64,000 nucleotides of DNA from Actinomadura sp. J1-007 (lineage in GTDB: Bacteria > Actinomycetota > Actinomycetes > Streptosporangiales > Streptosporangiaceae), in assembly GCF_009793335.1 (NCBI RefSeq), contig NZ_WING01000001.1, positions 7,192,001-7,256,000 of the forward strand. Reading direction: 5' to 3'. This document shows positions 41,738-48,116 of the stretch, piece after piece. Below the pieces are notes generated by a model that had not been told where the DNA came from, searched no databases, and saw nothing but the letters and a program-made list of their open reading frames with translations. The translations under genes and the position numbers were made by a program. Positions within the stretch are counted from its first letter, which is position 1; the number at the start of each line of letters is the position of its first letter.

Positions 41738-43149
41738 TCAGGTGGTGAGGAGGGTGGTGAGGGTGTCGACGTTGGGTAGGTCGGCGAGCTCGTAGGCGCG
41801 TTCGGTGATCTCGTCGGCGCGGGCCGGGGAGACGTGGCGGGTCGCGTTCAGGTGGAACTTGGCCGCCAGTTCCGCGGCCGAGAGGGGCCGGTCGGGGCCG
41901 CCGCGGTTGGCTTCGACCCGTTCCTCCAGGACGGTTCCGTCGCGCAGCCGGACGCGCAGGACGGCCGGGAACCGGTGCGGGAAGATCTGGTCGCAGCGGG
42001 CGTCCGGGACGCAGCGGACCTTCGCGGCGAGCGCCAGCCGCGCGGGGTCGGCGGCGGCCTCGTCGGTGAAGTCCTCGTGGGACACGCCGAGCCCGCCGCC
42101 GCCGAGCAGCGCCGCCGCCACGGTGTACGGCCCGGAGAACGCGGCGTGGTACCCCGACTTCGGTCGGGCCTTGTCCTGGGCGGGTTCGCCTATCGTGCGC
42201 AGGACGGCGGTGGGCGCGCCCAGTTCGAGGTCGTCGATCGCCGTGGGGTCCAAGCCGTTGGCACGCAGCCGCAGCGCGGCGTCGATGCCCGCGTGGGTGA
42301 AGTGGTTGCACGGGTACGGCTTGAAGAAGATCCCGGGCAGCTCCCAGTGCTCGCCGAGCCGGTCGGTGAGCGCGTCCGGGTCGGCCTGATCGCCGCAGAA
42401 CGCCTGGAGCAGCCCGAAACGGCCCTCCAGGACGGTGGGCGGCCCGGTGATCCCGGTCCGTGCCATCCCGGCCGCGGTGACGGCGGCGTGCGCGGCCCAC
42501 CCGCAGTGGACCCGCTTTACGGTGCCGCCGGTGCGGTTGGCCTCCAAGAGGCCCGAGCCCATGCTGGCGGCGATGCCCATCGCGTCCGCGACGCCCGCGG
42601 CGTCCAGGCCGGACAGCATCGCGCACGCGGCGGCCGCGCCGAACGCCCCGCAGATCGCGGTGGCGTGCAGGCCGCGTTCGAAGAACACCGAGTTGCCGAG
42701 ACCGGGGTCGTACCCGGCCATGCCGAGCCGCACGGCGATCTCGACCCCCGCGCCGATCGCGTCGAGCAGCGCCGCGCCGGACGCGCCCTGAGCCTCGGCG
42801 GCGGCGAGCGCGGCGGGCACGACGGACGCCGACGGGTGCAGCACCGATGGCAGGTGCGTGTCGTCGAAGTCGAGGGAGTGCGCGAGCGTCCCGTTCAGGA
42901 GCGCGGCGCTCGGCTCGGGAGCCGGAGGCCGGTGCCGATCGCGGTGGCCCGGTCGGCGCCGCCCCACTCGCGGACCAGCACGCCGATGGCCCGCGCGGGC
43001 GGTTCACCGGTCGCGGCGAGACTGTTGCCGAGCACGTCGAGGACCCGGCGGGCGGCGTCCGCGCGCAGCTCGGCGGGTAGGCCGCGGACGCGGACGCCGT
43101 CCGCGAAGGCCGCGAGCCGCTGGACCGGGGTCGCGGGCGGGCGGGTCAC
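41738..43149 (-). pseudogene. MmgE/PrpD-family protein, one frameshift
   Basis: About 470 residues. The start (GTG 43149, TRPPATPVQRLAAFADGVRV) runs to about 42915; after a one-base loss the text continues PEPSAALLNGTLAHSLDFDD, THLPSVLHPSASVVPAAL, CGWAAHAAVTAAGMA and FKPYPCNHFTHAGIDAALRL to the stop. The DFDDTH and YPCN motifs are those of 2-methylcitrate-dehydratase-like enzymes, a family also used in degradation of iminodisuccinate and other acids. Overlaps the cyclase gene (GTGA). Intact if one base is restored. Confidence 0.85.
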
Positions 43150-43990
43150 GCGCTCACCGCCGCGAGGGGGCGGACGGGCGAGCCGGTGCCGCCCCTGATC
43201 CGCAGCGGCGCGAGGACGAACACGAACTCGTGCAGCCCCGCCTCCGCGAGCGCCTCCAGGTCGAGGTGCTCGATGATGAAGATCCCCGCCTCGACCAGCA
43301 GGACGCGGTGCACGGGCAGGACGGCGTGTCCGGCGCCCGCGGGGATCTGCTCGTAGGCCGTCGTGTCGGCGCCGGTCGCGCTGATCCGGCGGTCGGCGAG
43401 CCATCGGGCGGCATCGGCGGTCACGCCCGGGACGCCGGTCTCCGTGCCGAGGTAGGCGGCCGGGTCGTGGAAGTTGCGCGACCAGCCGGTCCGGACCAGC
43501 GCGACGTCGCCCTCGCGGGGTTCGGCGCCCCGCGCGCCGCCGCCTCTTCCAGGTCCTCCACCGTGACGCCGTACCCGGGCGGGAGGGTGCCGGCGCCGTG
43601 CGCGGCGGCGACGTCCAGCAGGACGCCGCGCCGCAGCAGCCCGGGCAGGTGCTCGGCGCCGTGGCTGGTGAACGTCCCGCCGCGCTGGGCCTCGGCGGCG
43701 CCGATCCCGCCGTGCAGCTTCCCGTCGTGGCTGACGTGGGAGAGGGCGTCGATGTGCGTTCCGACGTGCCCGCCGGTGACGATGATCTCGTTGGCGGCCG
43801 AACCGCCGTCCGGGCGTTCCATGTCGCCGTGCCGCCGGATCAGCGTCATCCGGAACCCGGGATGGTTGGGCGAGCACGGCATCCCGGTGAAGAACGGGTG
43901 GCCGAGTTCGATCAGCCGGACGCCGCCGGCGACCGCGGCCAGGAGCGGGTCCTCGGCGCGGGTGACGGTGCGTGTTCCCTCGTCGGTCAT
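43146..43990 (-). pseudogene. Cyclase-family metal hydrolase (KynB-like), one frameshift
   Basis: About 280 residues. The first frame has LIELGHPFFTGMPCSPNHPG and the metal motif GGHVGTHIDALSH (HxGTHxDxPxH type), then LLRRGVLLDVAAA. Near 43535 one base is missing, and the other frame continues DVALVRTGWSRNFHDPAAYL, PGVTADAARWLADR and ends VRPLAAVSA. Family members hydrolyse formylkynurenine, ureidoacrylate-type or cyclic imide substrates. Sits between a 55-residue ORF and MmgE/PrpD with 4-base overlaps at each side. Confidence 0.85.
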
Positions 43991-44154
43991 GGATGGTGCC
44001 CTTCCTTGTCGGGCCGGGCGGACGCGGCCTTCATGACGGTGAGCAGGCAGGAGGCCCGCTCGGCCGGGTCGGCCTTGGCGGCGAGCGCCTTGGCGCTGGG
44101 GCCACCCGGCGCGTACGGCCGGCTTCCGCGCTGAAGCGTCCGGTCGGCGGTCAT
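43987..44154 (-). CDS. Small hypothetical protein in the CaiB-cyclase operon
   Basis: 55 residues starting MTADRTLQRGSRPYAPGG. Its ATG overlaps the CaiB stop and its TGA overlaps the cyclase ATG, which supports it as a real coupled gene. No family recognised; it may be a shortened descendant of a larger enzyme. Confidence 0.45.
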   Translation of the reverse strand: MTADRTLQRGSRPYAPGGPSAKALAAKADPAERASCLLTVMKAASARPDKEGHHP

Positions 44155-45336
44155 CGGATCACGCCCTTGGCGCGCAGCGCCTCCAGCTCCGCGTCCCGAT
44201 GCCGTACCGGCCGAGGACCTCGCCGGTGTGCGCACCGAGCGCGGGCCCGGCCGAGGCGATGCGCCCGGGGGTCCGGGAGAGCCGGAACAGCACGTTCTGC
44301 ATCTTGATCGGCCCGAGCTCGTCGTCCTGGACGGTGGTGATCGAGTCGAGCGCACGGAACTGGGGATCGGCCATGACGTCGGCCGCGTCGTAGATCGGTG
44401 CGACGGCGGCCTGCGCGTCCTCGAACGCCTTGACCACCTCGTCGCGGTCGCGTTGAGCGATCCACGAGCCGACGGCCTCGTCCAGCTCGTCGGCGTGCTC
44501 CGCGCGCTGCGAGCCGGTGGCGAACCACGGCTCGTCGATGAACTCGGGCCGTCCGACCAGGCGCATCACCCGTTCGGCGATCGACTGGGCGCTGGTGGAG
44601 ACCGCGACCCAGCTGCCGTCGCGGGTGCGGTAGGTGTTGCGCGGCGCGTTGTTGTGCGAGCGGTTGCCGGTGCGGGCCTGGAGCTCGCCGAGCTGGTCGT
44701 AGGTGATGATCTGCGGGCCGAGCAGGGTCAGGATCGGCTCGATGATGGCCAGATCGATCACCTGCCCCTCGCCGGTCGCCTCCCGGGCGCGCAGCGCGGT
44801 CAGCACGGCGAACGCGGCGGTGAGCGCGGCGATCCCGTCGGCCAGGCCGAACGGCGGCAGGGTCGGCGGCCCGTCCGGCTCGCCGGTGATCGCGGCGAAA
44901 CCGCTCATCGCCTCGGCCAGCGTTCCGAACCCGGGCCGCGCGGCGTACGGCCCGATCTGCCCGAACCCGGTGACCCGCGCCACCACGAGCCGCGGGTTGA
45001 GCTCCCTCAGCTCGTCCGGGCCGAGGCCCCAGCGCTCCAGCGTGCCGGGACGGAAGTTCTCGACCAGCACGTCGGCGTCGGCGACGAGGCGGCGGAAGAT
45101 CTCCTGCCCCTCGGGGAGCCGAGGTAGAGCGTGACGGCCTTCTTGCCGCGGCCGAGCATCTTCCACCACAGCCCGACGCCGTCGCGCTGTGCGCCGTGGC
45201 TGCGCACCGGGTCGCCCTTCGGATGTTCGATCTTGACGACCTCGGCTCCGAAGTCGGCCAGCAGGGTCGCGGCGAGCGGCCCGGCGAACAGCGTGGCCGC
45301 ATCGAGTACCCGGACCCCGGCCAGGGCGTCGGTCAT
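44151..45336 (-). pseudogene. CaiB/BaiF CoA-transferase, two frameshifts
   Basis: About 395 residues. ATG 45336 begins MTDALAGVRVLDAATLFAGP with LLADFGAEVVKIEHPKGDPV; near 45115 the frame moves and continues DVLVENFRPGTLERWGLGPD, RVTGFGQIGPYAARPGFGTL and NNAPRNTYRTRDGSW; near 44200 it moves again to DAELEALRAKGVIR. Both breaks need one added base. Class III transferases exchange CoA between carboxylic acids. First gene of the minus-strand operon; a GTTTC-N7-GAAAC operator lies 44 bases upstream. Confidence 0.87.
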
Positions 45337-45379
45337 GGGACGTACCGCCTTCGCATCAGAACTCTCCCTACTCCGGAAC

Positions 45380-45396
45380 GTTTCGCTGAGAGAAAC
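45380..45396. promoter_or_regulatory. Operator GTTTC-N7-GAAAC, CaiB side
   Basis: GTTTC (45380-45384), GCTGAGA, GAAAC (45392-45396). The reverse complement of the site at 45537 differs by a single base. Probable binding site for the IclR protein at 47322. Confidence 0.7.
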
Positions 45397-45536
45397 GGTT
45401 GCGGACCTCCTGCCTCAGGCTGTGGCCTGGCGGCGGCTTTCAAGTTCGCACTGGATGTTAGCCATCGTCAAGCTCGTCCCCTAGGGATTGACCGGAAAGA
45501 GCGGCCGGTGCCACGATGAGCCATCGACGGCCGAGT

Positions 45537-45553
45537 GTTTCTTTCAGCGAAAC
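45537..45553. promoter_or_regulatory. Operator GTTTC-N7-GAAAC, amidohydrolase side
   Basis: GTTTC, TTTCAGC, GAAAC (45537-45553). Second copy in the same 470-base divergent gap. The remainder of 45337-45807 shows no gene. Confidence 0.7.
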
Positions 45554-45807
45554 GCTAGGCCGATATCTGGGCTTCACTCCGAAGGAGGTCCCCTCCCGCA
45601 CCGTTGCGTCGGCCGCCCAGCGGCTTCCGCGCCGTACGCTCCCTCCTCCGACGGCTCCGTCCCGGGATCGCCGGAGAACTCCACCGCGCGGAGGCCGGAC
45701 GCTCGGCGACGCGCTGCGGATCGGTGCCACGTTCGGTCGTCCGGACACCTACCGAGGCCATGGCGCCGTCGCCGACGCCGCCGCCCCCCACTGATCAGGA
45801 GAACCTC

Positions 45808-47276
45808 ATGGCGACCACCGAGCTACTGCTCACCAACGTCCGCGTCGTCCGCCCCGACGCCCCGCTGGGGCGGAACCCGAACCTCTCGACATCGCCGTCA
45901 ACGACGGCACGATCGCCCGCCTGGCCCCGAACCTGCCGCACGACGAGGCCGCCACGGTGATCGACGGACGCGGGTCGCTGGCCTTCCCCGGCGTCGTGGA
46001 CGCCCACCAGCACTGGGGCATCTACAACGAGCTGCGGACCGACGCCCGCACCGAGAGCCGCGCCAGCGCCCAAGGCGGCGTCACCACCTCACTGACCTAC
46101 ATGCGGACCGGCCAGTACTACCTGAACAAGGGCGGCCCCTACCGGGAGTTCTTCCCCGAGGTGCTCGACGCCGTACAAGGCAACGCCCACGTCGACTACG
46201 CCTTCCACCTCGCGCCGATGACGGCCGAGCACATCGAGGAGATCCCGTTCCTCGTCGAAGAACACGGCGTCACCTCGTTCAAGATCTTCATGTTCTACGG
46301 CGGCCACGGGCTGCACGGCCGCTCCACCAGCCAGAGCGACTTCCTCATGACACCGCCGGACGAGCGGTACGACGTCGCGCACTTCGAGTTCGTCATGCGC
46401 GGCGTGCAGAAGGCCCGCGAGAGGCTCGCCGAGTACGCCCCCCACATCTCGCTGTCGCTGCACTGCGAAACAGCCGAGATCATGACCGCCTACACCCGGA
46501 TGGTCGAACGGGACGGCTCGCTGTCAGGGTTGCGCGCCTACAGCGCGTCCCGCCCGCCGCACTCCGAGGGCCTCGCCGTCACGATCGCGTCGTACCTCGC
46601 CCACGAGACCGGGCTGCCCAACGTCAACCTGCTGCACCTGTCGTCCGAGAAGGCGCTGTCGGCCGCCCTCACCATGGCGACCGCGTTCCCGCACATCGAC
46701 TTTCGTCGCGAGGTCACGATCGGGCACCTGCTCGCCGACGTCGACACCGCGCACGGCCTGGGCGGCAAGGTCAACCCTCCGCTGCGCGACCGCGACGACG
46801 TCGAGGCGCTGTGGCGGCACGTCCTCGCCGGCGACGTCGACTGGGTCGTCAGCGACCACGCCTGCTGCCGGGACGAGATGAAGTTCGGCGCCGACCGCGA
46901 TGACGTCTTCCTCGCCAAGTCGGGGTTCGGCGGCGCGGAGTATCTGCTCCCCGGCCTCGTCGGTGAGGGCACCCGCCGCGGCCTGTCCCTCCAGCGGATC
47001 GCGCAACTCACGTCCTGGAACCCGGCGCGCCGCTACGGCCTGCTCCGCAAGGGCGCCATCGCCGAAGGCTGCGACGCCGACATCGCGCTGGTCGATCCGG
47101 ACGTCTCGTGGACCGTCCGTGCCGCCGACTCCGAGTCGGCCCAGGAGTACACGCCGTTCGAGGGGTTCGAGATGTCGGCCCGGGTGACCGACACGTTCGT
47201 GCGCGGCCACCGGGTGTTCGCCGATGGGAAGGTGACCGCAGAACCTCTCGGCCGCTACATCCGCCGTGGCCGCTGA
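45808..47276 (+). pseudogene. Dihydropyrimidinase/allantoinase-like amidohydrolase, one frameshift
   Basis: About 489 residues. ATG 45808 (after CAGGAG) begins MATTELLLTNVRVVRPDAPL; one base is missing near 45880, after which the other frame reads DIAVNDGTIARLAP and then GSLAFPGVVDAHQHWGIYNE (metal His pair), SFKIFMFYGG (the Lys that is carboxylated in this family), HCETAEIM, LLHLSSEKAL and VVSDHACC (metal Asp). It should open a cyclic amide such as a hydantoin or dihydropyrimidine. Divergent from the CaiB operon across paired operators. Confidence 0.87.
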
Positions 47277-47321: not shown

Positions 47322-48116
47322 GTGACCAAGCAGAGCGCCGTGCCGGGTAGGGACGTGGACAGTGTCGGCACCGAGGTGGCCGGGCGCGTCGCCGACGTGC
47401 TGCTGCTGTTCGCCGGAGGCCCCCGCTACCTCGGCGTCAGCGCCATCAGCCGTGAACTCGGGATTTCGAAGGCCGTTGTGTATCGCATCCTGCGGTCGCT
47501 GGTGTCGCGGGGAATGCTGGAGACGGACTCCGGTACGCAGGGTTACCGGCTCGGCCCGGCCGCGGTGGCGCTCGGGGTGAGCGCGCTGCGCGGGTTCGAC
47601 GTCCGCAGTGCCGCTGCGCCGGTGCTGCGGCGGCTGCGTGATGAGACTGGCGAGACCGGTACGTTGTCCGGGCTGGTCGGTGATCAGCGGGTCTATCTCG
47701 ATCAGTTCGAGAGCCCGCAGGAGATCAAGATGACGGTCGAGGTCGGTCGCCGGTTCCCGCTGCACGCGGGCTCGTCCGGGCGGGTCATTTTGGCGTTCTT
47801 GCCGCCCGAGCGCCGCGAGGCCGTGCTCGCCGGGCCGCTCGCCGCGCTGACCGGCGGGACGCTCACCGACGGGGCCGTGCTCCGCGAGCGGCTGGCTGAG
47901 ACGGTCCGCGAGGGGGTCGCGGTGTCGCTCGGTGAGCGGCGCGCCGATGCGGCTTCGGTCGCCGCGCCGTTGTTCGGCCCGGACGGCGAGGTGCACGGTT
48001 CGATCAGCGTGTGCGGGCCTCGCTACCGGTTCACGCCCGAGGCGGTCGAACGGTACCGGGTCCTGGTCAAGGACGCCGCCGAGGAGGTCCGCCGCAACTT
48101 CGCGCCGTCGCCGTAG
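47322..48116 (+). CDS. IclR-family transcriptional regulator
   Basis: A 264-residue protein: winged helix with LGVSAISRELGISKAVVYRI, linker YRLGPAAVALG, and an effector domain with FPLHAGSSGRVILAFLPP and AAPLFGPDGEVHGSISVCGP. It follows the amidohydrolase gene by 45 bases on the same strand and probably binds the two GTTTC-N7-GAAAC sites at 45380 and 45537 to control the divergent CaiB and amidohydrolase units. Confidence 0.93.
   Translation: MTKQSAVPGRDVDSVGTEVAGRVADVLLLFAGGPRYLGVSAISRELGISKAVVYRILRSLVSRGMLETDSGTQGYRLGPAAVALGVSALRGFDVRSAAAPVLRRLRDETGETGTLSGLVGDQRVYLDQFESPQEIKMTVEVGRRFPLHAGSSGRVILAFLPPERREAVLAGPLAALTGGTLTDGAVLRERLAETVREGVAVSLGERRADAASVAAPLFGPDGEVHGSISVCGPRYRFTPEAVERYRVLVKDAAEEVRRNFAPSP

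Follow-up and report, generated by a model that had tools for sequence, protein, structure and literature searches.

A conserved pair of predicted IclR operators brackets back-to-back promoter-like elements between a CaiB operon and an amidohydrolase-iclR unit in Actinomadura

For the group-1 operators of the IclR family, the part of PMC8222616 consulted for this work gives the consensus GKTYCRYW3-4RYGRAMC and states that members of the family form tetramers. Two 17-mers that recall this consensus were located in a 64,000-nucleotide stretch of the genome of Actinomadura sp. J1-007 (the whole stretch is called the window below), at 45380-45396 and 45537-45553, and both match GTTTC-N7-GAAAC exactly. 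Measured against the consensus in that part of the source, both arms of both sites agree with GKTYC and GRAMC, whereas the inner RY-W3-4-RY is fitted by each site on one side only, with G or C in the centre. The features of the locus are as follows.

41738..43284, minus strand: MmgE/PrpD family gene (PF03972, PF19305), frameshifted in the assembly
43146..43990, minus strand: putative cyclase gene (PF04199), frameshifted in the assembly
44151..45336, minus strand: CaiB-type CoA-transferase family III gene (PF02515), leading gene of the left operon, frameshifted in the assembly
45380..45396, no strand assigned: left predicted operator, GTTTCGCTGAGAGAAAC, CaiB-proximal, a match to the pattern, with a site at this place in 9 of 9 aligned gaps
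45442..45471, minus strand: predicted promoter towards CaiB, read from the sequence, with TTGACG (45471-45466), an 18-nt spacer ending in TGC, and GAACTT (45447-45442)
45488..45517, plus strand: predicted promoter towards amidohydrolase-iclR, read from the sequence, with TTGACC (45488-45493), an 18-nt spacer ending in TGC, and CACGAT (45512-45517)
45537..45553, no strand assigned: right predicted operator, GTTTCTTTCAGCGAAAC, on the amidohydrolase side, a match to the pattern, with a site at this place in 9 of 9 aligned gaps
45808..47276, plus strand: cyclic amidohydrolase gene, allantoinase/hydantoinase-like (PF01979), N-terminus in another frame
47322..48116, plus strand: IclR-family regulator gene (above the cut-offs of PF09339 and PF01614), whose product is the proposed ligand of both operators

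The two sites, 157 bp apart, fall between the start of the CaiB-type gene (45336, minus strand) and that of the amidohydrolase gene (ATG 45808, plus strand). One base differs between the 17-mers when one of them is inverted, and the inverted repeat of the pair extends to 18 nt at 94%. The original prediction had described two 17-mers as nearly reverse complements with one mismatch, placed in one divergent gap between a CaiB operon and an amidohydrolase-IclR unit; the first point is borne out by the sites themselves and the second by the gene starts. A strict sigma-70 consensus scan found no promoter, and both promoter-like elements of the gap are non-strict matches. Relative to the predicted starts of transcription, the left operator would lie at about +40 to +56 in the CaiB direction and the right operator at about +14 to +30 in the amidohydrolase direction. 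Both operators thus follow the predicted start on their own side, an arrangement in keeping with repression. Some IclR-family regulators are activators, and binding of an activator to these sites was considered on that account; however, such a role is very unlikely, with both operators downstream, not upstream, of promoters that are themselves predicted.

The preferred reading is that the 17-mers are operators of the IclR protein encoded at 47322, that they bracket back-to-back promoters, and that this protein represses both operons and itself. We regard this as very probable from the comparison of genomes, which supports well the assignment of the sites to the second IclR regulator (47322) made in the original prediction, with the sites taken as predicted operators. 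A dimer or tetramer of the protein would occupy the operators just downstream of each promoter and stand in the way of RNA polymerase, blocking or stalling it on both operons. The left promoter would read into CaiB-cyclase-MmgE and the right promoter into amidohydrolase-iclR, and the protein would thereby also keep its own gene repressed (autoregulation). A pathway metabolite would then act as the inducer, releasing the protein and ending repression.

In the window, 3 matches with at most one mismatch were found against 0.45 expected, a number reached in 2 of 100 shuffles. A scan of the whole 10.33-Mb genome, which had been proposed with the original prediction, returned the exact pattern at 5 places, all within C1:7159256-7237553 (78 kb), and the pattern read backwards as a control at 0 places. 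The looser GTTYC-N7-GRAAC occurs at 31 places in this genome versus 9 when reversed, and the exact pattern at 28 places versus 9 reversed in 23 other genomes of the genus. These counts show that the pattern alone is only moderately specific, so that position and conservation carry the argument.

Eight congener loci keep the pair before the orthologous CaiB gene, in gaps that are only 54-63% identical to that of the window, and the pair is therefore found in 9 of 9 aligned gaps (the window and the eight loci). The spacing in the congeners is 155-156 bp in 7 of the 8 loci and 120 bp in the other one. A wider test used a position weight matrix, built from 16 sites of the genus Actinomadura, on the best 80 of 154 confirmed loci with IclR relatives. 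In the 1,511,944 bases of these 80 loci, the matrix gave 171 matches versus 1 for the reversed matrix, with at least one match in 74 of the 80 and a pair spaced 100-220 bp in 55. Some of the Actinomadura loci among the 80 come from training genomes (L059, L063, L069 and L099), and the fair test is therefore given by the 59 loci classed as other genera, where a match is present in 57 and a pair in 39. In three loci of two genomes from other families of the order (G024 and G026), weaker matrix pairs with scores of 14-20 and a spacing of 131-144 bp lie at the start of an IclR relative.

The six loci of the 80 that gave no matrix match are L067, L068, L072, L073, L111 and L132. The contigs of the first five end less than 10 kb upstream of iclR, and L132 (Asanoa) is a true miss, with no match in 20.8 kb. 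Two ortholog loci also lack a site: L047 (G016, on a 10.8-kb contig), which is also without CaiB or amidohydrolase, and L039, the C2 copy in this genome, in the stretch examined. Conservation of the sites along with regulator orthologs, a criterion for group-1 operators, was accordingly found with L047, L039 and L132 as exceptions. Chance was weighed against this record, since short quasi-palindromes do arise, as the 28 versus 9 places in the congeners illustrate. Nevertheless, that chance palindromes explain the window pair is hardly credible given 5 places versus 0 reversed genome-wide, 9 of 9 aligned gaps and 171 matrix matches versus 1 reversed, and the explanation was rejected on the conservation of the sites in place.

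By our reading of the loci, the sites lie ahead of the starts of operons that carry one gene set in several arrangements. The core of this set consists of iclR, amidohydrolase, CaiB, cyclase and MmgE, to which a flavoprotein, a racemase-like protein, a second MmgE and a branched-chain-type ABC transporter are often added. For the transporter binding protein of the relatives, the best match in this genome has only 31% identity, and for their flavoprotein only 35%. In Actinomadura sp. 6K520, a further pair of sites 82 bp apart (L099:13989-14087) was seen next to the cluster, between genes that read as flavoprotein-like and cupin-like.

The promoter-like elements were compared in a set of 33 divergent CaiB-side pairs, made up of the window and 32 loci from five genera. 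In 22 of the 33, the sequence following the pair gave a readable CaiB start; in the other 11, none turned up in the stretch examined and CaiB was deduced from the layout, including L059 and L063, for which CaiB is seen in L040 and L046, whose contigs have the same lengths. CTTGAC and GTCAA (the reverse of TTGAC) both occur between the operators in 33 of 33 pairs, which are not independent because many of the species are close relatives. An alignment of 19 of the CaiB-side pairs shows that the arms and the promoter-like elements are kept, and little else. Near-identity under inversion of the window pair is not special in itself, the sites being quasi-palindromic: across the 33 pairs, the two sites of a pair differ by 1-7 bases when compared inverted and by 2-7 when compared directly, and they are closer inverted in 16 pairs and equal in 5. 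An origin by mirror duplication of one operator was considered and found unsupported, because the two sites of a pair resemble each other, on average, about equally in direct and in inverted comparison (mean mismatches of 4.1 and 3.6, respectively).

A paralogous iclR gene at C1:7179894, about 12 kb before the window, encodes a protein 46% identical to 47322, and has its own pair, GTTTCTTATAAGGAAAC and GTTTCCCGAAGCGAAAC, directly upstream (C1:7179677 and 7179766). The three exact sites outside the window lie in a tract 12-33 kb before it, which also holds this paralogous gene. With two related regulators and like motifs in one region, a regulon cannot be assigned from the exact motif by itself, and the statement in the original prediction that the pair cleanly predicts the regulon was too strong, given that 3 of the 5 exact sites share a tract with the 46% identical IclR. 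Viewed as a locus of its own, the second iclR (L007:13677-14652, C1:7179677-7180652) has a GTTTC-N7-GAAAC pair 89 bp apart and is divergent from a gene that reads as flavin reductase-like. Relatives of the paralogous IclR in G001 and G004 are preceded by pairs about 80 bp apart, in which one of the four sites has one mismatch; no pair with at most one mismatch was found at the further paralog loci L053 and L055-L058. The single exact site at C1:7159256 (L006:9256-9272), with a high score of 27.0, lies before a gene whose sequence suggests an MFS-type transporter, with a Rieske oxygenase-like gene after the transporter-like gene; it possibly belongs to the regulon of either IclR. Another IclR-domain match, at C3:436458, has a GTTCC/GAAAC site about 100 bp ahead of it, at G000:C3:436346-436362.

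The presence of the paralog raises the question of which protein binds the window pair. The window pair has GTTTC/GAAAC in all four arms, as has the paralog's pair, a type seen in 0 of 56 other pairs, and the paralog could share the window sites because both pairs are of this all-T type. A further candidate is an orphan iclR copy in L039 (L039:10178-11111, G000:C2:444178-445111; gene at C2:444299), whose protein is 94% identical and whose DNA is 89% identical over 898 nt; a short remnant of the 3' end of the amidohydrolase gene lies before it, and no matrix match (score of at least 8) lies within 16 kb around it. However, it is unlikely that the paralog or the orphan copy is the main ligand of the window pair, or a further one. 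For the paralog, G005, G006, G009, G015 and G022 keep the pair with no IclR paralog of at least 45% identity among the scored candidates, and in G005, G015 and G022, the one IclR match at E<=1e-30 among these candidates is the ortholog itself. In addition, G001 has both regulators, yet its CaiB pair (L044) is not of the all-T type. The pair travels with orthologs of the 47322 iclR and their partner genes across genera, suggesting that 47322 is the main ligand. An association between recognition-helix residue 54 (H/Y) and the arm letter (T/C) was also tried, with 54 of 55 loci (L096 was dropped, its frame being without the motif). The naive p value of 2e-6 over the 54 loci became p=0.47 within Actinomadura, and this covariation gives no support because the association vanished there.

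The spacing of the sites bears on whether the two operators act together. In 29 of the 33 CaiB-side pairs, across five genera, the spacing is 154-157 bp, while 18 to 67 bp separate the proximal operator from the CaiB start in the 22 readable loci. This near-constancy, together with the tetramers stated for the IclR family in the consulted part of PMC8222616, would agree with DNA looping, in which an IclR tetramer bridges the operators across the divergent promoters and the fixed spacing matters. However, three pairs have a spacing of 120 bp and one pair has 151 bp; where the spacing is 120 bp, the operator next to CaiB sits about 31 bp closer to its own promoter element. The length between the operators may itself be kept by promoter geometry, because both promoter-like elements lie between the sites, and each operator already lies directly downstream of its own element. 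Helical phasing was assessed on 25 lineage-level values (108-157 bp), chosen by hand as one per genus and context and leaving out the window (157), L131 (154), L113 (142), same-genus members and pairs below 100 bp; the Rayleigh test gave p~0.13 at 10.5 bp. Lower values at other periods (p=0.022 at 10.8 and p=0.007 at 11.0) were not used, as they came from scanning seven periods. The looping arrangement put forward in the original prediction thus stands in part, in that the spacing is tight in one set of loci, with no significant phasing over all sets, and looping is a tentative possibility that we hold to be rather doubtful.

A stronger form is an obligate long-range switch, in which IclR bridges about 15 helical turns and 154-157 bp has been selected across five genera while most of the sequence between the sites drifted, and in which the operators of this strain have shifted to all-GTTTC arms, which the paralog may share; we consider this form distinctly improbable. 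If bridging did occur, a tetramer on the two operators would close both divergent promoters at once. The kept spacing offers a natural series for testing the action of IclR over long operator distances.

In the window, CaiB, cyclase, MmgE and amidohydrolase (41738-47276) are each split over two frames by comparison with the intact ortholog, and iclR and five genes at 48.3-52.9 kb have their family matches in single frames. About 99 kb of coding DNA from this genome (the window, L006-L008 and L039) contain 9 frameshift-like events, and about 210 kb from the loci of 11 relatives contain 2; such events are thus about ten times commoner in these stretches of the genome, as counted by a detector that missed two of the four frameshifts seen in the window locus. 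The one housekeeping gene examined, rpoC, is intact in this genome. Given four frameshifted genes, the window locus may be decaying or the assembly may be faulty; because the rate is high across stretches of this genome, a faulty consensus is as likely as decay of the locus.

Taken together with the preferred reading of repression by 47322, the sites link an uncharacterised actinobacterial catabolic gene set of many genera to one regulator and one operator motif. The regulon can be tested via the motif, and the inducer and the pathway by reporter screening. A search of one literature library with the terms used found no description of this regulon.

The protein 47322 belongs to the IclR family, with 48.3 bits for PF09339 (cut-off 22) and 135.3 bits for PF01614 (cut-off 24), and all eight NCBIfam models listed for it score below their cut-offs. 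The best-scoring curated IclR model is BhcR (NF045644), at 153.5 bits far below the cut-off of 350, and PcaR/PcaU/PobR (TIGR02431), also among the best-scoring models, is at 116.2 bits far below 284.75. The AllR/allantoinase loci come to mind because AllR is an IclR-family protein and the amidohydrolase ortholog in L040 scores best with the allantoinase model. However, this intact ortholog reaches 228.7 bits for TIGR03178 against an equivalog cut-off of 357.85, the window IclR scores 75.4 bits with the AllR model, whose cut-off is 406, and the AllR motif of E. coli in the consulted part of PMC8222616 differs from the window sites. Compared with the group-1 operators as presented in that part of the source, the window sites share the arms, the 17-bp quasi-palindrome and the linkage to an IclR gene of a catabolic locus, whereas their inner positions fit the consensus only in part and their separation of 157 bp contrasts with the frequent 18-22 nt tandem spacing given for the family. 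It is well supported that these sites are ordinary IclR group-1-type operators, a familiar sort of control.
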